From Halobacillus kuroshimensis DSM 18393 (lineage in GTDB: Bacteria > Bacillota > Bacilli > Bacillales > Halobacillaceae), in contig NZ_AUDY01000008.1 of NCBI RefSeq assembly GCF_000425705.1, forward strand, positions 1,054,001-1,118,000: DNA of 64,000 bases, written 5' to 3'. The notes under the pieces were generated by a model. That model saw only the letters and a program-made list of their open reading frames with translations. It did no database searches and had not been told where the DNA came from. Positions 15,099 to 24,894 of the stretch are shown piece by piece. Within the stretch, counting starts at the first letter, position 1. The number at the start of each line of letters is the position of its first letter. Position numbers and translations under genes: made by a program.

Positions 15099-15143
15099 AT
15101 ATTTAATTATTACTAAAATATTCGTGTTTCAGGAGTGATTTTG

Positions 15144-16127
15144 ATGGAAAATGTATTTGATTATGAAGATGTTCAATTAATTCCCGCAAAATGTGTCGTA
15201 AATAGTCGTTCTGAATGCAATACCTCTGTTCAATTTGGAAATCATACGTTCAAGCTGCCTGTGGTTCCCGCCAACATGCAGACCATTATTGATGATGAAA
15301 CAGCAACAAAGCTTGCTGAAAATGGATATTTCTATATTATGCACCGCTTCCAGCCTGAAACACGTACCCGTTTTATTGAAACAATGAAGGAAAGAGGTTT
15401 GATTTCTTCCATTAGTGTAGGTGTGAAGGAAGACGAATATGAATTTATCGAATCCTTGGCTGCCCGCCATCTGACTCCGGATTATATTACGATCGACATC
15501 GCCCACGGACATTCCAGCGCTGTCATTCATATGATTCAGCACATCAAAGCCCACCTCCCATCCACGTTCGTTATTGCCGGGAATGTCGGTACTCCAGAAG
15601 CCGTCAGGGAACTTGAAAACGCCGGGGCCGATGCCACTAAAGTAGGAATCGGACCAGGAAAGGTTTGTATTACAAAGGTCAAAACCGGTTTCGGTACTGG
15701 TGGGTGGCAGCTGGCAGCTTTACGCTGGTGTGCAAAGGCAGCCAGTAAACCTGTTATTGCCGACGGCGGAATCCGCACCCATGGAGATATCGCAAAATCC
15801 ATCCGTTTCGGCGCCTCCATGGTAATGATCGGCTCTCTCTTTGCCGGTCACGAAGAATCTCCGGGAGAAACCGTTGAAAAAGGTGGGAAACTATACAAAG
15901 AATATTTTGGTTCTGCTTCTGAATATCAAAAAGGGGAAAAGAAGAACGTCGAGGGCAAGAAGATGTTCGTGGAATACAAAGGACATTTGAAAGATACCCT
16001 CACAGAGATGGAACAGGATCTTCAGTCCGCTATCAGCTATGCGGGCGGTATCGATCTTGATGGCATCCGACACGTGGACTATGTCATTGTGAAAAACTCC
16101 ATCTTCAATGGAGACAAAGTTTATTAA
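15144..16127 (+). CDS. guaC: GMP reductase
   Basis: Reduces GMP to IMP with NADPH, returning guanine nucleotides to the purine pool. Starting at the ATG 8 bases after AGGAG, the protein has 327 residues, the normal length of bacillar GuaC. Diagnostic segments are [25 protein letters not shown], the catalytic loop [12 protein letters not shown] with the reactive cysteine, [12 protein letters not shown] and [14 protein letters not shown]. It is monocistronic and ends in a hairpin terminator. Confidence 0.97.
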
Positions 16128-16155
16128 AAGAAAACCGGCCGTAAGAGCGGCCGGT
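16128..16155 (-). terminator. Minus-strand terminator downstream of GyrI-like gene
   Basis: ACCGGCCG and CGGCCGGT form a stem; on the minus strand it is followed by TTTTCTTTT. It ends transcripts coming from the GyrI-like gene at 16414-16893, about 260 bases upstream. Confidence 0.7.
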
Positions 16156-16158
16156 CAG

Positions 16159-16188
16159 GCTGTCGGTAAAGTTCCCGGCAGCTTTTTT
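16159..16188 (+). terminator. guaC terminator
   Basis: GCTGTCGG pairs with CCGGCAGC (one G-U pair), followed by six T residues on the plus strand. Confidence 0.85.
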
Positions 16189-16413
16189 GTACTTGGGATT
16201 CCCGATCTTATGAAAAAAGCCCGTTAAGTATGCCTGAAGAAGCACCATCATCCGAAGATCTGCTTGGTCAGGAATCTCTACCGGAAAAAGGTAACGGAGG
16301 CCGTGCTCCCTACAGACTTCTTCCCAATATGCGGCCCTTCGCAATCCAGATGACATACAGCTACCTCTACGTAATGTTTCTAAAGCTGGGACGGTCTTCT
16401 TTTTTGATCCGGA

Positions 16414-16893
16414 TCAATAATCTCGCTGCAGAAGTGGGATGTAGATATCAAAATCATGATGATCCATTTTCCTTGGCACCGGGTACTTCTCGAACTTGAT
16501 TGGCAGATCATCATAATACTCCACACCAGGTTCACGATGAGGTTGTCTCCCCGTATTCTTAAACCATTGATAGACAGCTGTATAGGTATCTGCAACATTT
16601 TTCTCTTTCAGATACTGCACGTGAAGATAGGTTTGTTCTGGAATCGTTTGAATGTTCATCGTCGAGGGAATTTCCACCGACTCGTCAACCTGAAACCCTG
16701 AATAGTGCACAAGTCCATCATCCCTTGTATGATAGGAAAACCCCCACTGTTCAGATACATGCTCAAGGTCAGCTCTTCCGATCATTTCCTCCATTACCCC
16801 CTCAATCAACCCTTTCAGATCCGAAAGTTCTGTGTAACCTCCTTCCCATCTCCTGCAGGCTGCCTTCCATTCCGGAAGCGTAATGATTTCCAT
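16414..16893 (-). CDS. GyrI-like small-molecule-binding domain protein
   Basis: A 159-residue stand-alone effector-binding domain of the AraC-C/GyrI type (SHS2 fold). Features are the N-terminal strand EIITLPEWKAACRRWEGGYTE, the central LVHYSGFQVDE, the strand PEQTYLHVQYLKE and the C-terminal YYDDLPIKFEKYPVPRKMDHHDFDIYIPL. Such proteins bind amphipathic or cationic compounds. A related domain is fused to an AraC regulator at 50989-51852. The ligand is unknown. Downstream, about 285 bases separate it from guaC: they hold two terminators and an unassigned in-frame open stretch, discussed as a finding. Confidence 0.75.
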   Translation of the reverse strand: MEIITLPEWKAACRRWEGGYTELSDLKGLIEGVMEEMIGRADLEHVSEQWGFSYHTRDDGLVHYSGFQVDESVEIPSTMNIQTIPEQTYLHVQYLKEKNVADTYTAVYQWFKNTGRQPHREPGVEYYDDLPIKFEKYPVPRKMDHHDFDIYIPLLQRDY

Positions 16894-17017
16894 AGACTCA
16901 CTCCTTTCCCGTAAAACAGGATTGATTAGTTATGTGAGACGTTCAATCTGTTTTCTATACTACATATGAGTCTCTTCCCTTCCAATCCAACCCTTATAAA
17001 TGATCAGGTCCTCCACC

Positions 17018-17488
17018 TTACGGTTTCCATAATTCGCTGGACAGCGTTGCCTGCTCTTCTACACGGTCGACGAACTCCTGGACGACTTTATCATTCCCTT
17101 TTTTATTCGCCAGCTTCATCATGGCACGGCCGACAAAGTTAGTCCCACGATTGGACCCGGAATATATCAACCTTGTTGTCGACTGATCCACTTTTTCCAA
17201 TCGGAAGGACGCCGTTACTTCAAAAGCTTTGCCGATCACAAAAGCGATTTTCTTATGTTTAAATGCCGGCTTGTCCTCATACACAAGCGTATCTACAGTA
17301 TAGGTTTCGAGACGCTTCCCTTCTCTGTAGGTCTGCAGGTGTTTCGCACCTGCTTCCGTTTCTGTTTTTTCAATCAGCTTATGCTCTTCCACCTTAGGCA
17401 TGATCCGCTTAATGTTTTGATCTTTGAAAAGATCCCACACATCCTCAAGAGAAGCGTCGATCATTTTTTCTTTTTCCCATTCTATCAT
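17018..17488 (-). CDS. SRPBCC (START/polyketide-cyclase-like) protein
   Basis: A 156-residue hydrophobic-pocket protein. The N-terminus EWEKEKMIDASLEDVWDLFKDQNIKRIMPKV is typical of SRPBCC family members, with a long C-terminal helix (VGRAMMKLANKKGNDKVVQEFVDRVEEQA). The start codon overlaps the stop of the MerR gene, so the two are translationally coupled. The likely role is binding a small ligand linked to the MerR regulator; nothing identifies the ligand. Confidence 0.8.
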   Translation of the reverse strand: MIEWEKEKMIDASLEDVWDLFKDQNIKRIMPKVEEHKLIEKTETEAGAKHLQTYREGKRLETYTVDTLVYEDKPAFKHKKIAFVIGKAFEVTASFRLEKVDQSTTRLIYSGSNRGTNFVGRAMMKLANKKGNDKVVQEFVDRVEEQATLSSELWKP

Positions 17489-17829
17489 TCGTTCTCCTCC
17501 TTACCTGATTGGATAAAAGCATCCAGTTCCTTAATTCTTGCCTGAATATCTTCGGCCTCCTGTTCCATCTTGCTCTTCTTTTCTGCTAACAACTCTCCAA
17601 GACTGGCAAAGGATTCATCGGCCATTACGGTTTTCATTTCCTGTATGGAAAAACCGAACCTCCGCAGTTTACCAAGCAGAAGAGCGAGAAAATAGCTGCC
17701 GTCATCATAGTACCTGTACTTGTTTTCCGGATGAATAAAAGCCGGTTCCAACAGGCCCACCTCTGCATAATACCGGAGTGTATCCTTGCTGAGTCCCGTA
17801 AGGTTTGAGAATTCACTTCTTTTATACAT
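17485..17829 (-). CDS. MerR-family regulator
   Basis: A 114-residue DNA-binding regulator. The ATG at 17827-17829 follows GGAGGG by about 7 bases. The helix-turn-helix is SEFSNLTGLSKDTLRYYAEVGLLEP, with the wing ENKYRYYDDG, followed by a dimerisation helix ending in a coiled coil (LAEKKSKMEQEAEDIQARIKELDAFI). There is no metal-binding cysteine cluster and no long effector domain, so it is a small drug- or stress-type MerR protein. It is co-transcribed with the SRPBCC gene and probably autoregulated at the long-spacer promoter just upstream. Confidence 0.88.
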   Translation of the reverse strand: MYKRSEFSNLTGLSKDTLRYYAEVGLLEPAFIHPENKYRYYDDGSYFLALLLGKLRRFGFSIQEMKTVMADESFASLGELLAEKKSKMEQEAEDIQARIKELDAFIQSGKEENE

Positions 17830-17848
17830 GACACGCCCTCCTGCACTT

Positions 17849-17880
17849 ATTATAAACCGTGGGGTACACGCCATAGTCAA
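17849..17880 (-). promoter_or_regulatory. MerR-type promoter with 20-bp spacer
   Basis: On the minus strand TTGACT (17880-17875) and TATAAT (17854-17849) are 20 bp apart, longer than the normal 17. The spacer contains CGTG-TACCC-CACG, a short dyad. Over-long spacers with a central dyad are the classical architecture of MerR-activated promoters. Confidence 0.65.
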
Positions 17881-18146
17881 GGAATCTCTCCAAATGAAGA
17901 AAACATCCCCTCCCATTGACCTTATTCACTCTATCTTTACGAATCTTTCACGCTGCACCTGGCAGGATAAAAGTCCGGGTAGTTTTTGTTTCATCTTGTT
18001 AAATGGTGAAAGATACTGTCTAAAATTGTTGATTTCAACCATATTATGTTAATCATGAACAGGAGGAATTTACCTTGTCATATAATGGAAGTTTACATAC
18101 ACTTAATCATAAACATGTTAAACAATCTATCGCAAAGGAGTCCACC

Positions 18147-18476
18147 ATGCTCACTAAAGTAAAGCAAGTCCTATTCTTAAAACGCTTGGAAAAAATGCTG
18201 GGATCTTACAGGATAGACGTTCTCCATTTTATTCCCGGCAGAGTCCGGCTTTCGTCACCATACTGGGAAGGCCGTTCTAAAATTATTACGCGTTTGATTC
18301 CATTGTTGGAATTGGAAAATAAAATATACACCGTCAAACACACACCAGAGACCGGAACACTGCTTGTAGAGTACGATCCTGATCCAAATGTAGGGGAAAA
18401 ACAAATAGAAAACTGGTTAACCATCATTCAACGCGTTCACAATGATGTAATCTCCAAAGAAGTGACTGAATTATGA
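18147..18476 (+). CDS. HMA2-like domain protein 1 of the P-type ATPase cassette
   Basis: A 109-residue protein with the signature HFIPGRVRLSSPYW near residues 27-40 and TPETGTLLVEYDP further on, the pattern of the HMA2-type ferredoxin-like domain. It lacks the CxxC pair of metallochaperone domains. I chose the ATG with AAAGGAG 7 bases upstream, which gives the same spacing to PGRVRL as in the next gene. A TTG at 18075, 8 bases after a perfect AGGAGG, would add 24 residues in frame and remains possible. The stop overlaps the next start by four bases. Confidence 0.75.
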   Translation: MLTKVKQVLFLKRLEKMLGSYRIDVLHFIPGRVRLSSPYWEGRSKIITRLIPLLELENKIYTVKHTPETGTLLVEYDPDPNVGEKQIENWLTIIQRVHNDVISKEVTEL

Positions 18477-19006
18477 TCCAGAATTTAATCGGTCTGGGTG
18501 CATCTTTGGCCGCTCCAGAAATCATGAAGCGGATGAAGGATCAAAAAGTTCAGGTCCTCCATGCGATGCCGGGAAGAGTCCGTCTCCAAAGCGATCATTG
18601 GAAAAATGAAACGACAGCCGCTGCTCTGGAAGAAGTATTCACGGAAATCCCCATCGTCCAGCATGTGGAAGCTTCAGGAATCACAGGGAGTCTTCTCATC
18701 TTGTTCAACAGCAGTACCCTGACATCAGAACAATTTGATGCCTTAATCCAGCTGGCCGTCGACACGTCTACATCGACCTATCCCTACATAGAATCAAAGA
18801 TGAAAAGTTCGTTCCGAAAAGGGATGAACTCTCTGAACAATGCGGTTAAGAAACAAACCGGAGGGAAAACCGATGCGGAATCCCTTTTGGTTTTATGGCT
18901 CCTATATAAAGGAACAACAGGTTTCGGCGGCAACCCGGCCTTTGCCAGCAGCCTCCTTTACTGGGCTTATACTCTCATCCAGAAAGATGGTGACGACAAA
19001 ACTTGA
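18473..19006 (+). CDS. HMA2-like domain protein 2 with membrane-associated C-terminus
   Basis: A 177-residue protein beginning MIQNLIGLGASLAAPEIMKR, followed by LHAMPGRVRLQSDHW, the second PGRxRL signature of the cassette, and SGITGSLLILFN. The C-terminal part (ESLLVLWLLYKGTTGF, then FASSLLYWAYTLI) is hydrophobic enough for one or two membrane helices. It overlaps the genes on both sides by four bases, so the three products are probably made in fixed ratio. A role in loading or regulating the ATPase is inferred from position. Confidence 0.75.
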   Translation: MIQNLIGLGASLAAPEIMKRMKDQKVQVLHAMPGRVRLQSDHWKNETTAAALEEVFTEIPIVQHVEASGITGSLLILFNSSTLTSEQFDALIQLAVDTSTSTYPYIESKMKSSFRKGMNSLNNAVKKQTGGKTDAESLLVLWLLYKGTTGFGGNPAFASSLLYWAYTLIQKDGDDKT

Positions 19007-21123
19007 TGCAAGGAACAATCATACATCAGCTGCCAGGAAGGACACGGTTGAGAATGGAAAAAGAACAAAGGCCAGAAGTCGTCGAAGCTTTTCATCGAAA
19101 CCTTCCAGGGGTGAAATCCGCCCTTTACACCCCGGAAACAGGATCGCTGCTGCTCCACCACGACGTTCACTGGAATGCGGACAGCAGCAGGACAGCTCGT
19201 TTACTCTCTTCTGTGTCTGAACTTTCACTGTATAAAAAAGAACTTCAAACAGCAGGTGCTGCGTTCCTGATGGACTTTTTCCTACCTGCGTCCCGGTTCA
19301 CTGGAATGCTGAAAGTCCTTTCCCCTTCAGCATTGACTACCCTGTACGCTTGCAGGAATACTCTAAAGAACGGGGTGCGGCCACTTCAGGAAAAGACCCG
19401 CCCAAATGCCGACACATTGAGTATGGCTGCTATCATCGCTTCTATTATAAAAGGAAATCCGAAGTCAGCCGTTATGATTCTCATCATGTCGACGTTAAGT
19501 GAGATTATTACCGACATGACGTCACAGCGAACGAAAACATACGTGCGGGATATGATGAGTGTGGATACGCCATATGTATGGAAAGTAATTCATAACGGCC
19601 GGGAAGAGAAAGTCCCCATCCAAACCATCAATCCCGGTGATACACTGGCGGTTTTCGAAGGGGAAAAAATTTCAGCGGATGGCCGAGTATGCCAAGGAAC
19701 CGCCACCATAGATCAATCGGCCATTACAGGAGAATACATGCCTCAAGAAGTGTTCAAAGGGCAGGAAGTGTATGCTGGGACTATTGTACAGTCCGGAAGT
19801 CTGCAGATGGAAGTCACCCGCGTCGGAGAAGACACGACCGCTGCCGGAATCATTCATATGATTGAACATGCTCAGGATTCCAAAGCCCCGATTCAAAATT
19901 ACGCCGACGACATGTCGGAACGGCTGGTTCCCGTGTCATTCCTGCTGGCATTATTGACATACGCCCTTACAAGAAGCTGGGACCGTGTGTTGAACATGCT
20001 TGTCATTGATTATGTATGTGGGATCAAGCTGGCTACAGCTACTGCTGTTTCCGCTTCAATCGGCAGAGCAGCCAGTCAAGGTGCCATCATGAAAGGCGGG
20101 CAGCACCTGCAGTCCTTAGCCTCTGTCGATACGGCCATATTGGATAAAACCGGAACAATTACGGAAGGACGCCCAGAAATTGTTCAAATCCTTCCATTTA
20201 ATGGTTTCACAGAAAACGACATACTCCGATACGCGGCGTCTGCTGAGGAGCATTCCTCTCATCCAATAGCTGAATCTATTTTAACTAAAATGAAAAAGAA
20301 TGGCCTTACTGCCTATGACCATGACCACTCAAGCATTGAAAATATCGTAGGTCACGGAGTTAGAGCGATCGTCAATAAAAAGGAAGTACTGGTCGGCAGC
20401 CAGGAACTTCTCATAAAGTCACATGTGGATATGAGCAGCCTGCCTTTTCTTAAAAAATCTTTAAAAAAGAAAAACACCGTATATGCAGCAGTTGATCAGT
20501 CCATTGCCGGTGTGATTGTTATCGAAGATGCTGTCCGCTCTGGAATGAAGCGGACGATCAACCAATTAAGAAGAAGCGGGATTGATGAAATTGTCATGAT
20601 TACAGGGGATAAAAAGGAGACAGCTGAAGAAGTTTTCAAGGAGCTTCATCTGGATCACTATTACCCTGAAGTCCTCCCTCACGAGAAAGCAGCCTTTGTC
20701 CATCATTACAAAAATCAAGGAAGAAATGTCATGATGGTCGGTGACGGAATCAATGATGCTCCTGCTTTGGCAGCAGCTGATATAGGAGTAAGCATGGGAG
20801 GAAAACGGACGGATATTGCCGTGGAAGCCAGTGACCTTGTTATCACCTCAGACGATCCTCTAATCCTGGCAGATATGGTCGATCTATCCAAGTCCACCAT
20901 GCGGATGATCCGGAGGAATTTCGCTGTCACCATTGCTTTAAATAGCGCGGCTATATTGTTCGGCCTTTTCGGATGGATTACACCGACAGTGGGTGCCGCC
21001 ATACACAACTCGGCTACAATCGGAGTTGTCCTGAACAGCACACGCTTGTTGGTGAACAAGGAGAGAAAACCATGCAGGCAACCTTTACCATCGTCCACGA
21101 CATACCTGGTCGACTCCGCCTGA
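19003..21123 (+). CDS. Metal-transporting P1B-type ATPase with N-terminal HMA2-like domain
   Basis: A 706-residue P-type ATPase. The N-terminus HQLPGRTRLRM and TPETGSLLLHH form a third PGRxRL domain. Core motifs are TGEYMP (actuator, about residue 242), DKTGTITEG (phosphorylated Asp about residue 381), SSHPIAE (P1B HP motif) and GDGINDAPALA (about residue 580). The transmembrane metal motif, normally CPC or SPC, is DYVCGIKLATA with Cys at about residue 339 and no proline. A similar C-x-x-K-L pattern is what I recall for CtpC-like ATPases, but substrate cannot be assigned. Export of a transition metal is the likely job. The 3' end overlaps the next gene by 52 bases. Confidence 0.88.
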   Translation: MMQGTIIHQLPGRTRLRMEKEQRPEVVEAFHRNLPGVKSALYTPETGSLLLHHDVHWNADSSRTARLLSSVSELSLYKKELQTAGAAFLMDFFLPASRFTGMLKVLSPSALTTLYACRNTLKNGVRPLQEKTRPNADTLSMAAIIASIIKGNPKSAVMILIMSTLSEIITDMTSQRTKTYVRDMMSVDTPYVWKVIHNGREEKVPIQTINPGDTLAVFEGEKISADGRVCQGTATIDQSAITGEYMPQEVFKGQEVYAGTIVQSGSLQMEVTRVGEDTTAAGIIHMIEHAQDSKAPIQNYADDMSERLVPVSFLLALLTYALTRSWDRVLNMLVIDYVCGIKLATATAVSASIGRAASQGAIMKGGQHLQSLASVDTAILDKTGTITEGRPEIVQILPFNGFTENDILRYAASAEEHSSHPIAESILTKMKKNGLTAYDHDHSSIENIVGHGVRAIVNKKEVLVGSQELLIKSHVDMSSLPFLKKSLKKKNTVYAAVDQSIAGVIVIEDAVRSGMKRTINQLRRSGIDEIVMITGDKKETAEEVFKELHLDHYYPEVLPHEKAAFVHHYKNQGRNVMMVGDGINDAPALAAADIGVSMGGKRTDIAVEASDLVITSDDPLILADMVDLSKSTMRMIRRNFAVTIALNSAAILFGLFGWITPTVGAAIHNSATIGVVLNSTRLLVNKERKPCRQPLPSSTTYLVDSA

Positions 21124-21647
21124 TCATTCCTGCTCTCTACGATAAGAAAGAGCACGGGCAGATCCAGGATATGTTTACGTCCATTAAAGGAATACAGAAG
21201 GTAAACATTGAACCGGCTATTCAATCGATGACGGTCCACTACTCCAAGGACGTGATTAACAGAAAAATCATCCTCCGTTTTATCAGTTTATTTTTTAAGC
21301 AGACGCAGTTTGATCCGCTGGACAATATCATGATCAATATTGCCCCTGCCCAGCGCAAGGATTTTTTCCGAAGTCTTGTAACAGGATTCCTTATTCTGCT
21401 GGCCTATTTGAACAACAAGCCCGGCAGCGTCCCTGGAATGCTCGACTATGCCGTCGTCATTTCCACTGCTTATACAGTTCTGTCCCACGGAGAAAACAAA
21501 CTCCGTCACCCGGATGTTCTCACGGGAATTGTAAGCATGCTGTCCATCGGGGCAGGAAACATTCTTCAGGTAGCTATGGTAACTTGGGCTGTCAACGTCC
21601 TTGAGCTTTTAAATGATTCAAACAAAAAAAGAATACTGCCATTCTAA
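21072..21647 (+). CDS. HMA2-like domain protein 3 with membrane segments
   Basis: A 191-residue protein starting at the ATG after AAGGAGAG. It begins with VHDIPGRLRLIIPAL, the fourth PGRxRL signature, and QSMTVHYSKDV. The C-terminal half has two or three hydrophobic stretches (RSLVTGFLILLAYLN, DYAVVISTAYTVLS, LTGIVSMLSIGAGNILQVAMVTWAV), so the domain is tethered to the membrane. It begins inside the ATPase gene. There is no CxxC. Function is unknown; a membrane partner of the ATPase is inferred. Confidence 0.78.
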   Translation: MQATFTIVHDIPGRLRLIIPALYDKKEHGQIQDMFTSIKGIQKVNIEPAIQSMTVHYSKDVINRKIILRFISLFFKQTQFDPLDNIMINIAPAQRKDFFRSLVTGFLILLAYLNNKPGSVPGMLDYAVVISTAYTVLSHGENKLRHPDVLTGIVSMLSIGAGNILQVAMVTWAVNVLELLNDSNKKRILPF

Positions 21648-21667
21648 AAAAAACAGGAGGTATTACT

Positions 21668-21916
21668 ATGGTATTAAATAAGGATTTCATGATGGGATTT
21701 GTATCAGGAACAGTCGTTGGAGCAGTCGGCTACCGGCTCTATGAACAAAACCAGGGTCAGCTTTCACAGCTCATTCAAAACCCCGGCGTTCAATCTATGA
21801 ATTCACTGCCTTCCCTTTCAACCAACCAACATGAAGTAACGATGGAGGATTTAATCGCACAGAAAGAACGCCTGGAAGATTATATTGCCGAGAAAAAAGT
21901 GAACAGCGCCCAATAA
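21668..21916 (+). CDS. Small glycine-zipper membrane protein of the cassette
   Basis: An 82-residue protein with one N-terminal membrane helix rich in spaced glycines (GFVSGTVVGAVGYRLY) and a charged, probably coiled-coil C-terminus (TMEDLIAQKERLEDYIAEKK). AGGAGG lies 7 bases upstream. The layout recalls the small PacL-type partners encoded beside mycobacterial metal P-type ATPases, which gather the pump into platforms, but I cannot see enough identity to claim homology. It is the last gene before a strong terminator. Confidence 0.75.
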   Translation: MVLNKDFMMGFVSGTVVGAVGYRLYEQNQGQLSQLIQNPGVQSMNSLPSLSTNQHEVTMEDLIAQKERLEDYIAEKKVNSAQ

Positions 21917-21927
21917 GAAGAAGGCCA

Positions 21928-21962
21928 AAAAGGTACACTCCCCCGGGAATGTACCTTTTTTA
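21928..21962 (+). terminator. Terminator of the P-type ATPase cassette
   Basis: AAGGTACA...TGTACCTT stem with a GC-rich top, followed by seven T residues. Confidence 0.9.
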
Positions 21963-21993
21963 TAAACTTTCGTATAATATTCTGACTTCACTG

Positions 21994-22022
21994 TTGACAT
22001 TTCGTGGAGTTAGCTATATATT
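21994..22022 (+). promoter_or_regulatory. SigA promoter of the manganese importer
   Basis: TTGACA (21994-21999), a 17-bp spacer and TATATT (22017-22022). The first MntR-type box begins at the end of the -10 hexamer. Confidence 0.75.
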
Positions 22023-22038
22023 TTGCACTAAGGAAACT
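22021..22038 (+). promoter_or_regulatory. MntR box 1
   Basis: TTTTGCACTAAGGAAACT fits the MntR consensus TTTGC-N4-5-GG-N-AAA known from B. subtilis mnt promoters. It overlaps the promoter -10 end and start site, so Mn-bound MntR would repress. Confidence 0.75.
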
Positions 22039-22072
22039 TTTTATGCTGAAAGCAATACTGTCATCTTTTTTC

Positions 22073-22107
22073 GGGACCCCCATATAGTAAAGGGGTATCT
22101 TTTTTAA
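22073..22107 (+). terminator. Weak hairpin with T-run in the mnt leader
   Basis: ACCCC and GGGGT form a short stem, followed by TATC and a run of six T. It lies between the two MntR-like boxes and could attenuate transcription or end a short leader RNA. Confidence 0.35.
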
Positions 22108-22113
22108 ACTAAA

Positions 22114-22132
22114 AGTTGCACTCGGCAAATTT
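22114..22132 (+). promoter_or_regulatory. MntR box 2
   Basis: AGTTGCACTCGGCAAATTT has the TTGC-N4-GG-N-AAA spacing of an MntR site and lies about 75 bases before the ATPase start. No clear second promoter is visible. Confidence 0.5.
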
Positions 22133-22205
22133 AAATGCCCTAATATAAATTTCATGAAGACATGCACGAACTATGTATAAAGAAAATGATTAAAGGAGGA
22201 TCATC

Positions 22206-22946
22206 ATGCACCACCCTGCTATTTCCATCAAAGACCTTCACGTTTCCTATTACGGAAATGAAGCTGTCAAAGGTATCAGTCTGTCAGTGCAGCCAGGGAA
22301 CCTTATAGGAATTATCGGGCCTAACGGCGCAGGTAAATCTACGTTTCTAAAAGCTGTACTGAATTTGATTCCTAAAGATAAAGGAACCATTCATTTATTC
22401 GGGAGTTCCATTCAGGAAGCACGACGGAAAATCGCCTATGTCCCTCAAAGAAATGATATCGACTGGGATTTTCCAATCACTGTCCTGGATGCTGTCCTGC
22501 TCGGCACCTACCCCAACTTGAAATTGTTCCGTAGACCGGGAAAAAAAGAAAAAATCTGGGCACTGGAGTGTTTGGACAGAGTCGGTATGAAAGATTTCAG
22601 CAAAAGACAGATCGGTGAACTTTCCGGGGGGCAGCAGCAGCGTGTATTCCTCGCCCGTGCTCTGGCCCAGAAAGCGGATATGTTCTTTCTTGACGAGCCT
22701 TTTGTAGGAGTCGACGTGTCCAGTGAGGAAACGATTGTCAAAATCCTAAAGGAATTATGCTGGCACGGAAAAACCGTCGTGGTCGTCCATCACGATTTAA
22801 GTAAAGCAGAAGAATATTTTGACCAGCTCATTTTACTAAATAAGGAATTGGTTGATTTCGGTCCTGTCAGTGAAGTTTTCCGTACAGAAACCATTGCCAA
22901 AGCGTATCAAGGGCAATTTGCCTTCATGAAAGAGATTGGAGTGTAA
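22206..22946 (+). CDS. mntB: Manganese ABC transporter ATPase
   Basis: A 246-residue ATPase of the metal (cluster 9) ABC family. Walker A GPNGAGKST, PQRNDIDWDFPITV (the Q-loop region typical of MntB/ZnuC-type proteins), signature LSGGQQQRVF, Walker B MFFLDEPFVGVD and switch histidine VVVHHDLSKA are all visible. GGAGGA precedes the ATG. The next gene begins two bases after its stop. The two MntR-type boxes in the promoter region point to manganese rather than zinc. Confidence 0.93.
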   Translation: MHHPAISIKDLHVSYYGNEAVKGISLSVQPGNLIGIIGPNGAGKSTFLKAVLNLIPKDKGTIHLFGSSIQEARRKIAYVPQRNDIDWDFPITVLDAVLLGTYPNLKLFRRPGKKEKIWALECLDRVGMKDFSKRQIGELSGGQQQRVFLARALAQKADMFFLDEPFVGVDVSSEETIVKILKELCWHGKTVVVVHHDLSKAEEYFDQLILLNKELVDFGPVSEVFRTETIAKAYQGQFAFMKEIGV

Positions 22947-22948
22947 CT

Positions 22949-23806
22949 ATGGAATTTATCGAGGCCGTCTTTCAATATGAATTTTTACAAAAAGCCCTGC
23001 TTACATCGATTATGGTCGGCATCATCTGCGGAGTCATCGGCTGCTTCATTATCTTAAGAGGAATGGCACTTATGGGAGACGCCATCTCACATGCCGTCCT
23101 ACCTGGTGTTGCCATTTCTTATATGCTGGGAATCAACTTCTTTTTCGGTGCCGTTTTCAGCGGTGTACTAACCGCCATTGCCATTGGATTCGTCAGTCAA
23201 AACAGCCGGATCAAACATGACACATCCATTGGAATTATGTTCACCGCTGCATTTGCTGCCGGGATCATCATTATTACACTGCTGAAAAGCAGTACAGATC
23301 TGTATCACATTCTGTTCGGGAATGTCCTGGCCGTCCGTTCCTCAGATATGTGGATCACCATGGGCATAGGTTTAGTTGTCTTGGCAGCTGTTTACTTATT
23401 CTATAAAGAACTGCTCGTTACATCTTTTGACGAAACAATGGGAGCCGCCTATGGGCTGCCTGTACGTATGATTCATTATTTTCTTATGACTCTGTTAACG
23501 ATGGTGACCGTGGCTTCTCTGCAGACCGTGGGCATTGTCCTCGTCGTAGCCATGCTGATTACACCGGCAGCCGCCGCTTACCTATTAACAGACCGGCTGT
23601 CCATCATGATTTTTCTTGCTGCCGGTATCGGCGTCATATCAAGCATTACAGGGTTGTACTTCAGTTTCACCTACAACCTGGCTTCAGGAGCTGCCATTGT
23701 TTTAGCAGCAACCGCCCTTTTTATTCTCGTATTCCTTTTTTCACCAAAGCACGGGCTTCTATGGAAAATGCTGAAGGTAAGGAAAAAGCGGGCATCCCTT
23801 GTTTAA
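22949..23806 (+). CDS. mntC: Manganese ABC transporter permease
   Basis: A 285-residue permease with eight or more membrane helices, of the ABC-3 family. Diagnostic segments are LRGMALMGDAISHAVLPGVAISYMLG, DTSIGIMFTAAFAAGIIII and GIVLVVAMLITPAAAAYLLTDRL. GGAGTG lies 8 bases upstream. Only one permease gene is present, whereas B. subtilis has two (mntC, mntD), so the channel is probably a homodimer here. Confidence 0.92.
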   Translation: MEFIEAVFQYEFLQKALLTSIMVGIICGVIGCFIILRGMALMGDAISHAVLPGVAISYMLGINFFFGAVFSGVLTAIAIGFVSQNSRIKHDTSIGIMFTAAFAAGIIIITLLKSSTDLYHILFGNVLAVRSSDMWITMGIGLVVLAAVYLFYKELLVTSFDETMGAAYGLPVRMIHYFLMTLLTMVTVASLQTVGIVLVVAMLITPAAAAYLLTDRLSIMIFLAAGIGVISSITGLYFSFTYNLASGAAIVLAATALFILVFLFSPKHGLLWKMLKVRKKRASLV

Positions 23807-23946
23807 TGAATGAATAAGGTAAATGGGAGTCATCACTCCCCTAGTCATCATTTATGCCGGGAAGACAAGTACCTCTTCCCTTCTAACACTTGTTATCTAA
23901 AGCACCATTGAATAAAACAACGTTTTACGAATAGTCAGGAGGAATT

Positions 23947-24894
23947 ATGTTTATGTTGAAAAAGAATTGGATCCTTAGTGTACTCGTGTTTTCCACTCTG
24001 CTCTTTCTGGCAGCCTGTGGAGACAACGAAGCAAGCGGAACGAAAGATGAAGATGAAAAAGTACAGGTCGTTACGACGTATTCCATTATTTATGACATCG
24101 TTAAGAATGTCGGTGGTGACAAAGTGGATATTCACAGTCTCGCTCCCATCGGCTCCAACCCCCATGAATACGATCCACTACCGGAAGATGTCAAGAAAAC
24201 AACAGATGCTGATGCCGTATTCTACAATGGTTTGAATTTGGAAGCCGGAAATTCATGGTTCAATAAACTGATGGAAACCACCGGAAAAGCCGGCGACGAT
24301 GCTCCTGTCTTTTTAATGAGTGAAAATGTTGAAGCCATGTACTTAACGACAGAAGGCAAGGAGGGTGAAGAAGATCCTCACGCCTGGCTGGATATTCAAA
24401 ACGGTATCCAGTATGCTGAAAACGCACGGGACGGCCTGATTAAGGTGGATCCTGAAAACAAGGAAGTCTATGAAAGAAATGCAGAAGAATATATCGCAGA
24501 ACTGCAAGATCTGCATGATGAAGCAGTGGCCCAGTTCGAGGAAATCCCCGAAGAGGAACGTGTGCTCGTTACAAGTGAAGGAGCATTCAAATATTTCAGT
24601 GAGGCTTACAACTTCCAAGCCGAATACATTTGGGAAATCAACCAGGAAAACCAGGGAACTCCTGATCAAATTACTAGAATTGTAGATTTGATCAACGAAA
24701 GACAAATCACTGGATTGTTCCTCGAAACCAGTATTGATGCCCGGAGTATGGAAGCTGTATCATCAGAAACCGATGTTCCGATCAGAGGTAAAGTCTTTAC
24801 CGATTCCCTTGCTGAACCTGGAGAGGATGGAGACAGTTACATCTCCATGATGGAATGGAATATCAAAACCATAAAAGAAGGATTGACTCAATAA
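23947..24894 (+). CDS. mntA: Manganese-binding lipoprotein
   Basis: A 315-residue cluster A-I solute-binding lipoprotein. After a short signal peptide the lipobox LAAC is followed by an acidic linker. Metal ligands expected for the family are visible in IGSNPHEYDP (His), EEDPHAWLD (His), VTSEGAFKYF (Glu) and DSLAEPGEDG (Asp region). The ATG two codons later (23953) is 10 bases from AGGAGG and may be the true start, as the first ATG is only 4 bases away. A 140-base gap separates it from the permease gene, unlike the tight spacing before it. Confidence 0.93.
   Translation: MFMLKKNWILSVLVFSTLLFLAACGDNEASGTKDEDEKVQVVTTYSIIYDIVKNVGGDKVDIHSLAPIGSNPHEYDPLPEDVKKTTDADAVFYNGLNLEAGNSWFNKLMETTGKAGDDAPVFLMSENVEAMYLTTEGKEGEEDPHAWLDIQNGIQYAENARDGLIKVDPENKEVYERNAEEYIAELQDLHDEAVAQFEEIPEEERVLVTSEGAFKYFSEAYNFQAEYIWEINQENQGTPDQITRIVDLINERQITGLFLETSIDARSMEAVSSETDVPIRGKVFTDSLAEPGEDGDSYISMMEWNIKTIKEGLTQ

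Follow-up and report, generated by a model that had tools for sequence, protein, structure and literature searches.

A five-gene cassette (genes A to E) lies head to tail on the + strand at positions 18147-21916 of a 64,000-nucleotide stretch of Halobacillus kuroshimensis DSM 18393 (NZ_AUDY01000008.1, positions 1,054,001 to 1,118,000; the window), and combines a divergent P1B-type metal ATPase (C) with three proteins that carry the same HMA2 domain as its N-terminus (A, B and D) and a small glycine-rich membrane protein (E). The gene order is kept in 39 of 40 distinct loci, the ATPases form a clade sister to P1B6-type pumps and the cassette is found repeatedly beside genes for manganese, zinc or iron uptake, a context that is the main new point of this work. 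We give an even chance to the reading that the five proteins would form a P1B6-like divalent-metal pump complex tied to metal acquisition and pumping a borderline ion outward. All five open reading frames (ORFs) were confirmed; gene coordinates below are in window numbering (TM4 and TM6, transmembrane helices 4 and 6).

18147..18476, + strand: gene A, stand-alone HMA2 domain protein, 109 amino acids
18473..19006, + strand: gene B, HMA2 protein with a hydrophobic C-terminal half, 177 amino acids
19003..21123, + strand: gene C, P1B-type ATPase with an N-terminal HMA2-like domain and DKTGT
19978..20076, + strand: TM4 of C, residues 326-358, DYVCGIKL, proline-free
20983..21051, + strand: TM6 of C, residues 661-683, H668-N669 motif
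21072..21647, + strand: gene D, HMA2 domain and four predicted helices, co-linear with the ATPase N-terminus
21668..21916, + strand: gene E, glycine-rich membrane helix (as read from the sequence) and charged tail, 82 amino acids
21927..21960, + strand: terminator-like hairpin and T run 3' of E, -18.2 kcal/mol, z -2.66

Gene overlaps of 4, 4 and 52 nucleotides, given in a preliminary description of this DNA, were confirmed between A and B (ATGA) and between C and D, respectively; that between B and C is 4 nucleotides only with a TTG start and 1 nucleotide with the ATG at 19006, which is the likelier start of C.

Gene C encodes a P1B-class ATPase (TIGR01525, 545 bits) that also scores above the cut-off of the cadmium-subfamily model TIGR01512. 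Its proline-free TM4 reads MLVIDYVCGIKLATATA, in which D336, C339, G340 and K342 are invariant in 18/18 aligned rows, as is H668-N669 of TM6. Over 34 clade rows the TM4 pattern is D-[FY]-[VIAS]-C-G-x-[KQ]-L, with Q replacing K in the Sporosarcina loci L083 and L084 (L and G numbers denote loci and genomes). The VCG reported earlier at the place where CPC or SPC is usual was confirmed in the window, and the unusual TM4 extends across the 34 clade rows, which read [VIAS]CG and contain neither CPC nor SPC. Classical Cu/Zn P1B pumps combine CPC in TM4 with a CxxC domain, whereas the cassette ATPase has neither. The Asp, Cys and usually Lys of TM4 and the His-Asn of TM6 may instead make up the transport site, and residues of this kind would suit borderline ions (Mn2+, Fe2+ or Zn2+) better than Cu+. 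In the predicted model of C, which is of only moderate confidence (predicted local distance difference test (pLDDT) 74, predicted template modelling score (pTM) 0.61), the TM4 helix is broken at residues 333-338, beside D336. Among the 60 chains listed in the structure matches, none was named as a P1B6 pump.

Kinship to P1B6 pumps was suggested by shared motifs and by a tree. In the passages cited from PMC9374683, HN in TM6 is a P1B6 feature and DUF6110 proteins are typically encoded with this poorly characterised family. Four reference P1B6-type ATPases (L156, L158, L159 and L163) have HN and a TM4 of the form D-[FY]-S-C-A-x-K-L-x-x-P; a DUF6110 gene adjoins L156 and L158, and the neighbour of L163 matches the family below its cut-off. 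The cassette ATPases share with the DUF6110-linked pumps the HN, the Asp, Cys and Lys of TM4, the lack of CPC, in some cases an HMA2-like N-terminus, and a small glycine-motif membrane partner gene. They differ in the three extra HMA2 satellites and in TM4, where window C has CG instead of SCA and no proline and does not fit the reference pattern. In a 49-row tree, the CG rows formed one clade (35 rows including the window, support 100/99) that was sister to, not nested in, the four reference rows (39 rows together, 99/96); the tree holds only these four P1B6 rows, includes four long-branch rows and is rooted at the midpoint. P1B-6 is listed as Fe(II) in a review table (PMC7558416), and no member had been biochemically examined as of 2016 according to the passage cited from PMC4932525. 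In the cited part of PMC10654040, the TM4 ion site is linked to prolines that break the helix, of which each subfamily has one to three, and all P1B pumps are described as export pumps.

Four consecutive proteins had been said to carry the HMA2 signature PGRxRL, and this held for all of them, through Pfam for B and D (with A just under the cut-off) and through profile comparison for C. The motif, placed by hand, lies at 18234-18251 in A and 18569-18586 in B (PGRVRL in both), 19033-19050 in C (PGRTRL) and 21105-21122 in D (PGRLRL), and its recurrence is, on the HMA_2 scores, not a chance pattern. Against Pfam HMA_2 (PF19991, curated cut-off 30 bits), B scored 75.1 bits (residues 25-167), D 38.7 and A 28.9, and the A genes of several relatives exceed the cut-off. 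The N-terminus of window C gave no Pfam HMA_2 match at E<=1; it was recognized as HMA2 by profile comparison to A, B and D (E 3e-12 to 8e-14), and C orthologues of eight other genomes of the order matched HMA_2 at E<=0.001, all below its cut-off. The family label alone is no proof of metal binding. The earlier remark that CxxC is missing was borne out: in each of the 34 clade ATPases, the 200 N-terminal residues lack it, and window A, B and D contain, by reading, zero Cys. In the aligned rows, H-x-x-P-G-R-x-R shows no variation in A, C and D (18 rows each), and in B (17 rows) only the H varies, and rarely; outside the aligned rows, D has HELSGRIR in L095 and HDIPNRIR in L119. W40 and T69-G70 are further invariant residues of A. 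Because the domains share H-x-x-P-G-R-x-R, any metal site would not be the CxxC loop. They probably serve in docking or regulation rather than as soft-metal carriers. HMA2 is not confined to P1B pumps, as ATPases of ~1400 amino acids with PEGLP in TM4 (L063, 5595-9836; L064, 1612-5883) carry an HMA2-like PGRxRF motif.

Over its whole length, D aligned with the ATPase N-terminus (hhalign, 97.8%, E 7.5e-13, 183 columns), the signal coming mainly from the HMA2 part. The membrane part of D alone matched the first ATPase helices with E 0.0015 (probability 17%), to be read beside two reversed controls (E 0.22 and 0.33) and the six printed of 40 column shuffles (E 0.13-0.63); a membrane half copied from these helices is suggestive only. 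Profile comparison gave no relation for the B tail. A model of D (pLDDT 72, pTM 0.40) showed four helices of lower confidence besides a ferredoxin-like domain, whose mean pLDDT was 82-92 over residues 11-70. Foldseek returned no match to it at E<=0.001; the best small-domain matches, all at E>0.001, were ATP7B metal-binding domains and the YajR YAM domain, and RNA polymerase subunits of similar fold scored equally high.

The fifth protein, E, has 33 invariant residues across 18 sequences, and 16 invariant positions are kept across nine diverse copies. G10, G14, G18 and G21 of the helix are invariant, together with a tail of the form LxxQKExLEDxIA. The preliminary description had likened E to PacL partners of mycobacterial ATPases. 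A GxxxG membrane partner of PacL-like build was upheld, but homology to DUF6110 or DUF1490 was not: E had no Pfam match at E<=1, three distant E homologues had no DUF6110 or DUF1490 match at E<=0.5, and an assignment of E to DUF6110 was rejected as the hhalign comparison (E 0.033 over 18 columns) was not significant. With no conserved His or Cys, E also lacks the C-terminal metal-binding motif of PacL (DUF1490). Kinship to PacL therefore appears architectural only, consisting of a single glycine-motif helix and a charged tail. PacL1-CtpC of Mycobacterium tuberculosis likewise pairs a metal P-type ATPase with an adjoining small single-helix GxxG/GxxxG protein (PMC9374683, PMC13043812). CtpC has CPC, which the cassette ATPase lacks, and the cited passages of these papers do not mention HMA2 satellite genes for CtpC; they predict PacL-like assemblies for Firmicutes in general terms. 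Other phylum genomes encode HMA2 ATPases that, as described for CtpC, pair CPC in TM4 with HN in TM6 (L121, L160 and L161).

The distribution of the cassette was explored through several searches. With HMA_2, it was found in 4/44 family genomes and at least 16/397 order-sample genomes, and besides the window, 15 of those 16 order-sample regions were read. A first set of 19 loci contained A-B-C-D-E in order in 17 (B is two ORFs in L057), and the remaining two hold other ATPases of ~1400 amino acids. A further search took E as its only query, a choice that reaches close relatives, and yielded 31 loci from named genomes of Halobacillus, Pseudalkalibacillus, Alkalihalobacillus, Rossellomorea, Neobacillus, Metabacillus, Priestia, Niallia, Sporosarcina, Ectobacillus, Paenibacillus and others, and the five genes are ordered in all 31. 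Irregularities were limited to B split into two ORFs in L072 and L089 (the other four genes present), a first gene closer to B than to A in L088 and an A called short in L095. Altogether 41 loci were compared, which amount to 40 distinct ones since L049 and L082 coincide, and the single exception to the order is L118, a more distant locus outside the order in which A is missing. In the order sample, an ATPase without satellites, which would have refuted the preliminary description, was not found: a back-translated TM4 signature matched 15/397 order genomes, all of them cassette carriers (signature without cassette, 0/15), and the sixteenth cassette genome, G268, has a Val codon outside the search pattern.

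In the phylum sample, the TM4 pattern occurred in 17/398 genomes, 13 of them in families f79 and f110. Nine of these 13 were retrieved, and six (L191, L194-L197 and L199) show a second arrangement in which E and two small proteins precede an ATPase with IDFSCGLKLSTATA and HN. HMA_2 was confirmed in 3/3 small proteins tested from L195 and L196. In L192, L193 and L198, E and TM4 are present by motif, and simple ORF picking missed or misassigned genes. E and C thus stay together in a distant group despite its other gene order. These patterns bear on the possibility that A, B and D are decaying, functionless duplicates of the ATPase N-terminus. The split B genes and the missing A of L118 would be expected under decay, but the order persists in 39/40 loci while A falls to about 30% identity, and D is better conserved than C in 17/17 aligned relatives, which makes this account very improbable.

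The genomic context of the cassette was then compared. In the window, the cassette adjoins a Mn-type ATP-binding cassette (ABC) importer.

17881..22016, no strand: segment missing at the empty site of sister species G011
21994..22022: promoter-like site at mntBCA
22022..22038, + strand: MntR-like box TTTGCACTAAGGAAACT, in the mntBCA promoter downstream of the cassette, not in the cassette promoter
22206..24894, + strand: mntB-mntC-mntA, with ABC_tran, ABC-3 and ZnuA matches

Neighbours within about 5.5 kb were clustered and representatives of a few clusters identified (upstream flanks were often ~3.4 kb). By hand count, 18/40 loci have a gene for Mn, Zn or Fe uptake close by (Tro/Mnt-type ABC, ZIP, ZinT or FeoB). 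Tro/Mnt-type importers adjoin the cassette downstream in the window, L065-L067, L087 and L091 and upstream in L076-L078, and L080 has two such permeases, assigned by cluster. ZIP genes are near L059, L061 (just above cut-off), L075, L080 and L090, ZinT genes near L055 and L088, and FeoB near L118 and, represented by two ORFs (one of them scanned), near L085. FeoB-like motifs were also present in 3/9 phylum loci (L196, L197 and L199; Pfam confirms L196 and L199). After collapse by lineage, done by hand, an uptake gene is near about 11/27, with a chance P of 2e-14 to 3e-10 that assumes 4-10 such loci per genome; uncollapsed related species are not independent. Copy numbers per genome, from 16 genome handles, were 3-5 for ABC-3, counting weak matches, and 1-6 for ZIP, two pairs of handles being the same genome (G412/G819 and G337/G820). 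The ZIP, ZinT and FeoB neighbours indicate an association with divalent-metal uptake, not with Mn alone. MntR-family genes adjoin the cassette in L080 and L085, with Pfam DtxR-type domains above cut-off and NCBIfam MntR as the best model, below its cut-off. The window binding protein scored 425 bits with the Mn/Fe model EfaA (cut-off 485) versus 192 with the zinc model AztC.

The count omits non-Tro ABC genes near L081, L083 and L084 (judged by reading or length), a 570-amino-acid one near L078, and a DUF1980/ArsP_1 pair of ambiguous transport direction beside Priestia cassettes. This pair, a DUF1980/TIGR03943 protein and an ArsP_1 permease, adjoins the cassettes of L059, L061, L089, L116, L117 and L088; it is upstream of and divergent from A in 5/6, and in L116 two genes intervene. 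It matches a Cu/Zn efflux model weakly, far below cut-off.

Such matches could fit an ordinary resistance exporter of the Zn/Cd/Co type, with redundant satellites and with neighbourhoods that reflect general clustering of metal genes. Both TIGRFAM models above cut-off, carriage on Priestia plasmids, CPC and SPC ATPases near L074 and L085, and the DUF1980/ArsP_1 pair all point in this direction, and since few of the single neighbours were identified, a resistance regulator could have escaped notice. C nevertheless has neither CPC/SPC nor CxxC, the satellites are kept in 39/40 loci, and the merR of the window is also found in a relative with an empty site and is not the cassette's own. We consider this explanation unlikely, though by no means negligible. 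Outward delivery of Mn or Zn to surface metalloenzymes or the forespore under scarcity, not for detoxification, would agree with co-location with uptake and ZinT genes and with the hosts from the E search, whose genera are of spore-forming bacilli. Among the few neighbour clusters that were identified, however, we noticed neither a surface-enzyme nor a sporulation gene, and the relatives with the second gene order fall outside the order; this proposal is quite improbable.

Regulation was assessed with assumed consensus boxes for MntR, Zur, Fur and PerR, up to two mismatches being allowed for the latter three. In Neobacillus L076-L078, the box TTTGCGCTAGGGAAACA (two mismatches to the MntR consensus) is 80-83 bp before A, and the tro operon is preceded by a weaker copy with three mismatches. 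The consensus is supported by a box (<=2 mismatches) before mntB in 12/12 same-genus loci (window and L201-L211), which represent 12 of the 14 genomes with a match, window included; G011 (L201) has two boxes there. With one mismatch, a broad MntR pattern gave counts no higher than a reversed control. Only its exact matches are informative, and the pattern was partly drawn from those same sites: the eight matches in six genomes are three Neobacillus cassette promoters, two tro promoters and three sites elsewhere. A two-mismatch MntR match follows E by 109 bp in L093, where no importer was seen. Zur, Fur and PerR boxes showed no recurrence across cassette promoters. Upstream, single boxes were noted: a Zur-like one 235 bp before A in L117, Fur-like ones in L075 and L086, and PerR-like ones in L081, L085 and L086. 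At L118, which adjoins FeoB, a Fur-like box with a single mismatch coincides with the called start of the first gene, and an exact Fur-like box lies 186 bp past E; this would fit an iron-linked version of the cassette. A search for a riboswitch or other RNA element gave no Rfam match over 16000-24000 (E<=1). A dyad GTTGATTTCAAC (18028-18039), put forward earlier as a candidate operator, exists and was rejected as such: it is not in the upstream stretches of the Halobacillus relatives L065-L067, and by a hand estimate about two dyads with 5-bp arms and loops of 0-8 are expected per 230 bp.

According to the cited part of PMC11275975, single operators that overlap the promoter repress importers, and activation of exporters uses several sites; by this placement the Neobacillus cassette looks Mn-repressed. 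Together with the predominance of uptake systems among identified metal neighbours, this clearest cassette-promoter box casts doubt on the 'metal export' part of the preliminary description. Its broader proposal of a metal-ATPase complex kept the HMA2 domains, the strict co-occurrence and the PacL-like partner, and lost the operator dyad and the homology of E. The P1B6 kinship, the possible kinship of the D membrane part, mntBCA with its MntR-like box and mobility go beyond that description.

The neighbourhood makes import a serious rival, in the form of a multi-subunit, Kdp-like importer with accessory membrane subunits that would take up Mn2+, Fe2+ or Zn2+ under starvation. Metal neighbours that are mostly uptake systems of four kinds, the importer-like placement of the Neobacillus box (by PMC11275975) and a proline-free TM4, mostly with a buried Lys, unlike known exporters, argue for it. 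Set against these, P1B pumps are all described as exporters in the cited part of PMC10654040, A, B, D and E have no Pfam match to a channel or Kdp subunit, and an MntR-like box in one genus is thin regulatory evidence; we regard import of this kind as unlikely. Likeness to KdpFABC is limited to a P-type ATPase with several small partner subunits; the cassette partners do not match Kdp subunits, and the alignment of C to KdpB reflects no more than their common P-type ATPase class. A more specific version, in which a primary-active Mn2+/Fe2+/Zn2+ importer for scarcity would rely on the proline-free TM4, mostly with its built-in lysine, and draw its subunits from its own N-terminal module, seems rather improbable. 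If true, it would add a kind of primary-active importer for transition metals that the cited literature does not describe.

The outward P1B6-like pump complex to which we give an even chance would be a single membrane assembly of the divalent-metal ATPase C and the glycine-zipper scaffold E, joined by three extra copies of the ATPase N-terminal domain: A as the domain only, B with a hydrophobic tail and D with four helices. Deployed alongside Mn, Fe and Zn importers, it would most likely pump outward and correct the metal mix brought in by promiscuous importers, a direction favoured because P1B pumps are described as exporters. Several observations weigh against this account. No uptake gene is seen at 22/40 loci, and ordinary CPC/SPC ATPases occur near L074 and L085. 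The binding proteins of L150, L087, L091 and L065 score higher with AztC (212-228 bits) than with EfaA (195-214), all under cut-off. The window cassette promoter has no recognisable metal box, only mntBCA having one, and a Mn-repressed promoter would be odd for a Mn exporter, so that an outward pump would need a competing ion as its cargo. The moderate confidence of the C model adds to these points.

Mobility of the cassette is suggested by sister species G011 (mntB 91% identical), in which the site between merR and mntBCA is empty. There, SRPBCC-like, merR-like and mntB genes directly follow one another, and 135 unaligned bases take the place of window segment 17881-22016. In G022, of the same genus, the cassette adjoins a different importer (ABC ATPase 52% identical, other gene order), so within one genus it stands beside two different Tro/Mnt-type importers. 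D has matches in fourteen plasmid records, each from Priestia; pBM400 and p5_CACC119, both read, contain the complete cassette, whose genes carry no annotation beyond HMA2 domain-containing, cation-translocating ATPase and hypothetical protein. Given the empty site and the plasmid carriage, the cassette is accessory. Composition gave no signal of recent foreign origin (G+C 46.1% versus 46.4% for the window). Upstream, an IMPDH/GMP-reductase-like gene (named by reading, window 15135-16127) is also found in the Pseudalkalibacillus-type L068-L070. Three more P1B-type ATPases, two with CPC and one with SPC, are encoded in the window genome, and the SPC-type match has a TAA stop within the matched stretch (G000:C6:109384-111096).

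No description of the five-gene cassette was found in the literature search, as far as the sources covered go, and the phrase 'HMA2 domain-containing' is absent among the matches it listed. With the P1B6 family called poorly characterised in the cited part of PMC9374683, the cassette is of value as a route to these pumps, and its plasmid-borne form (Priestia megaterium QM B1551, pBM400) offers a compact, culturable test case for the cargo of P1B6-like pumps, for scaffolded P-type ATPase complexes outside actinobacteria and for a P-type ATPase working without the TM4 proline to which the ion site is tied in the cited part of PMC10654040. Its repeated place beside uptake operons provides a guess at the substrate and a reason to doubt the default 'efflux' label.

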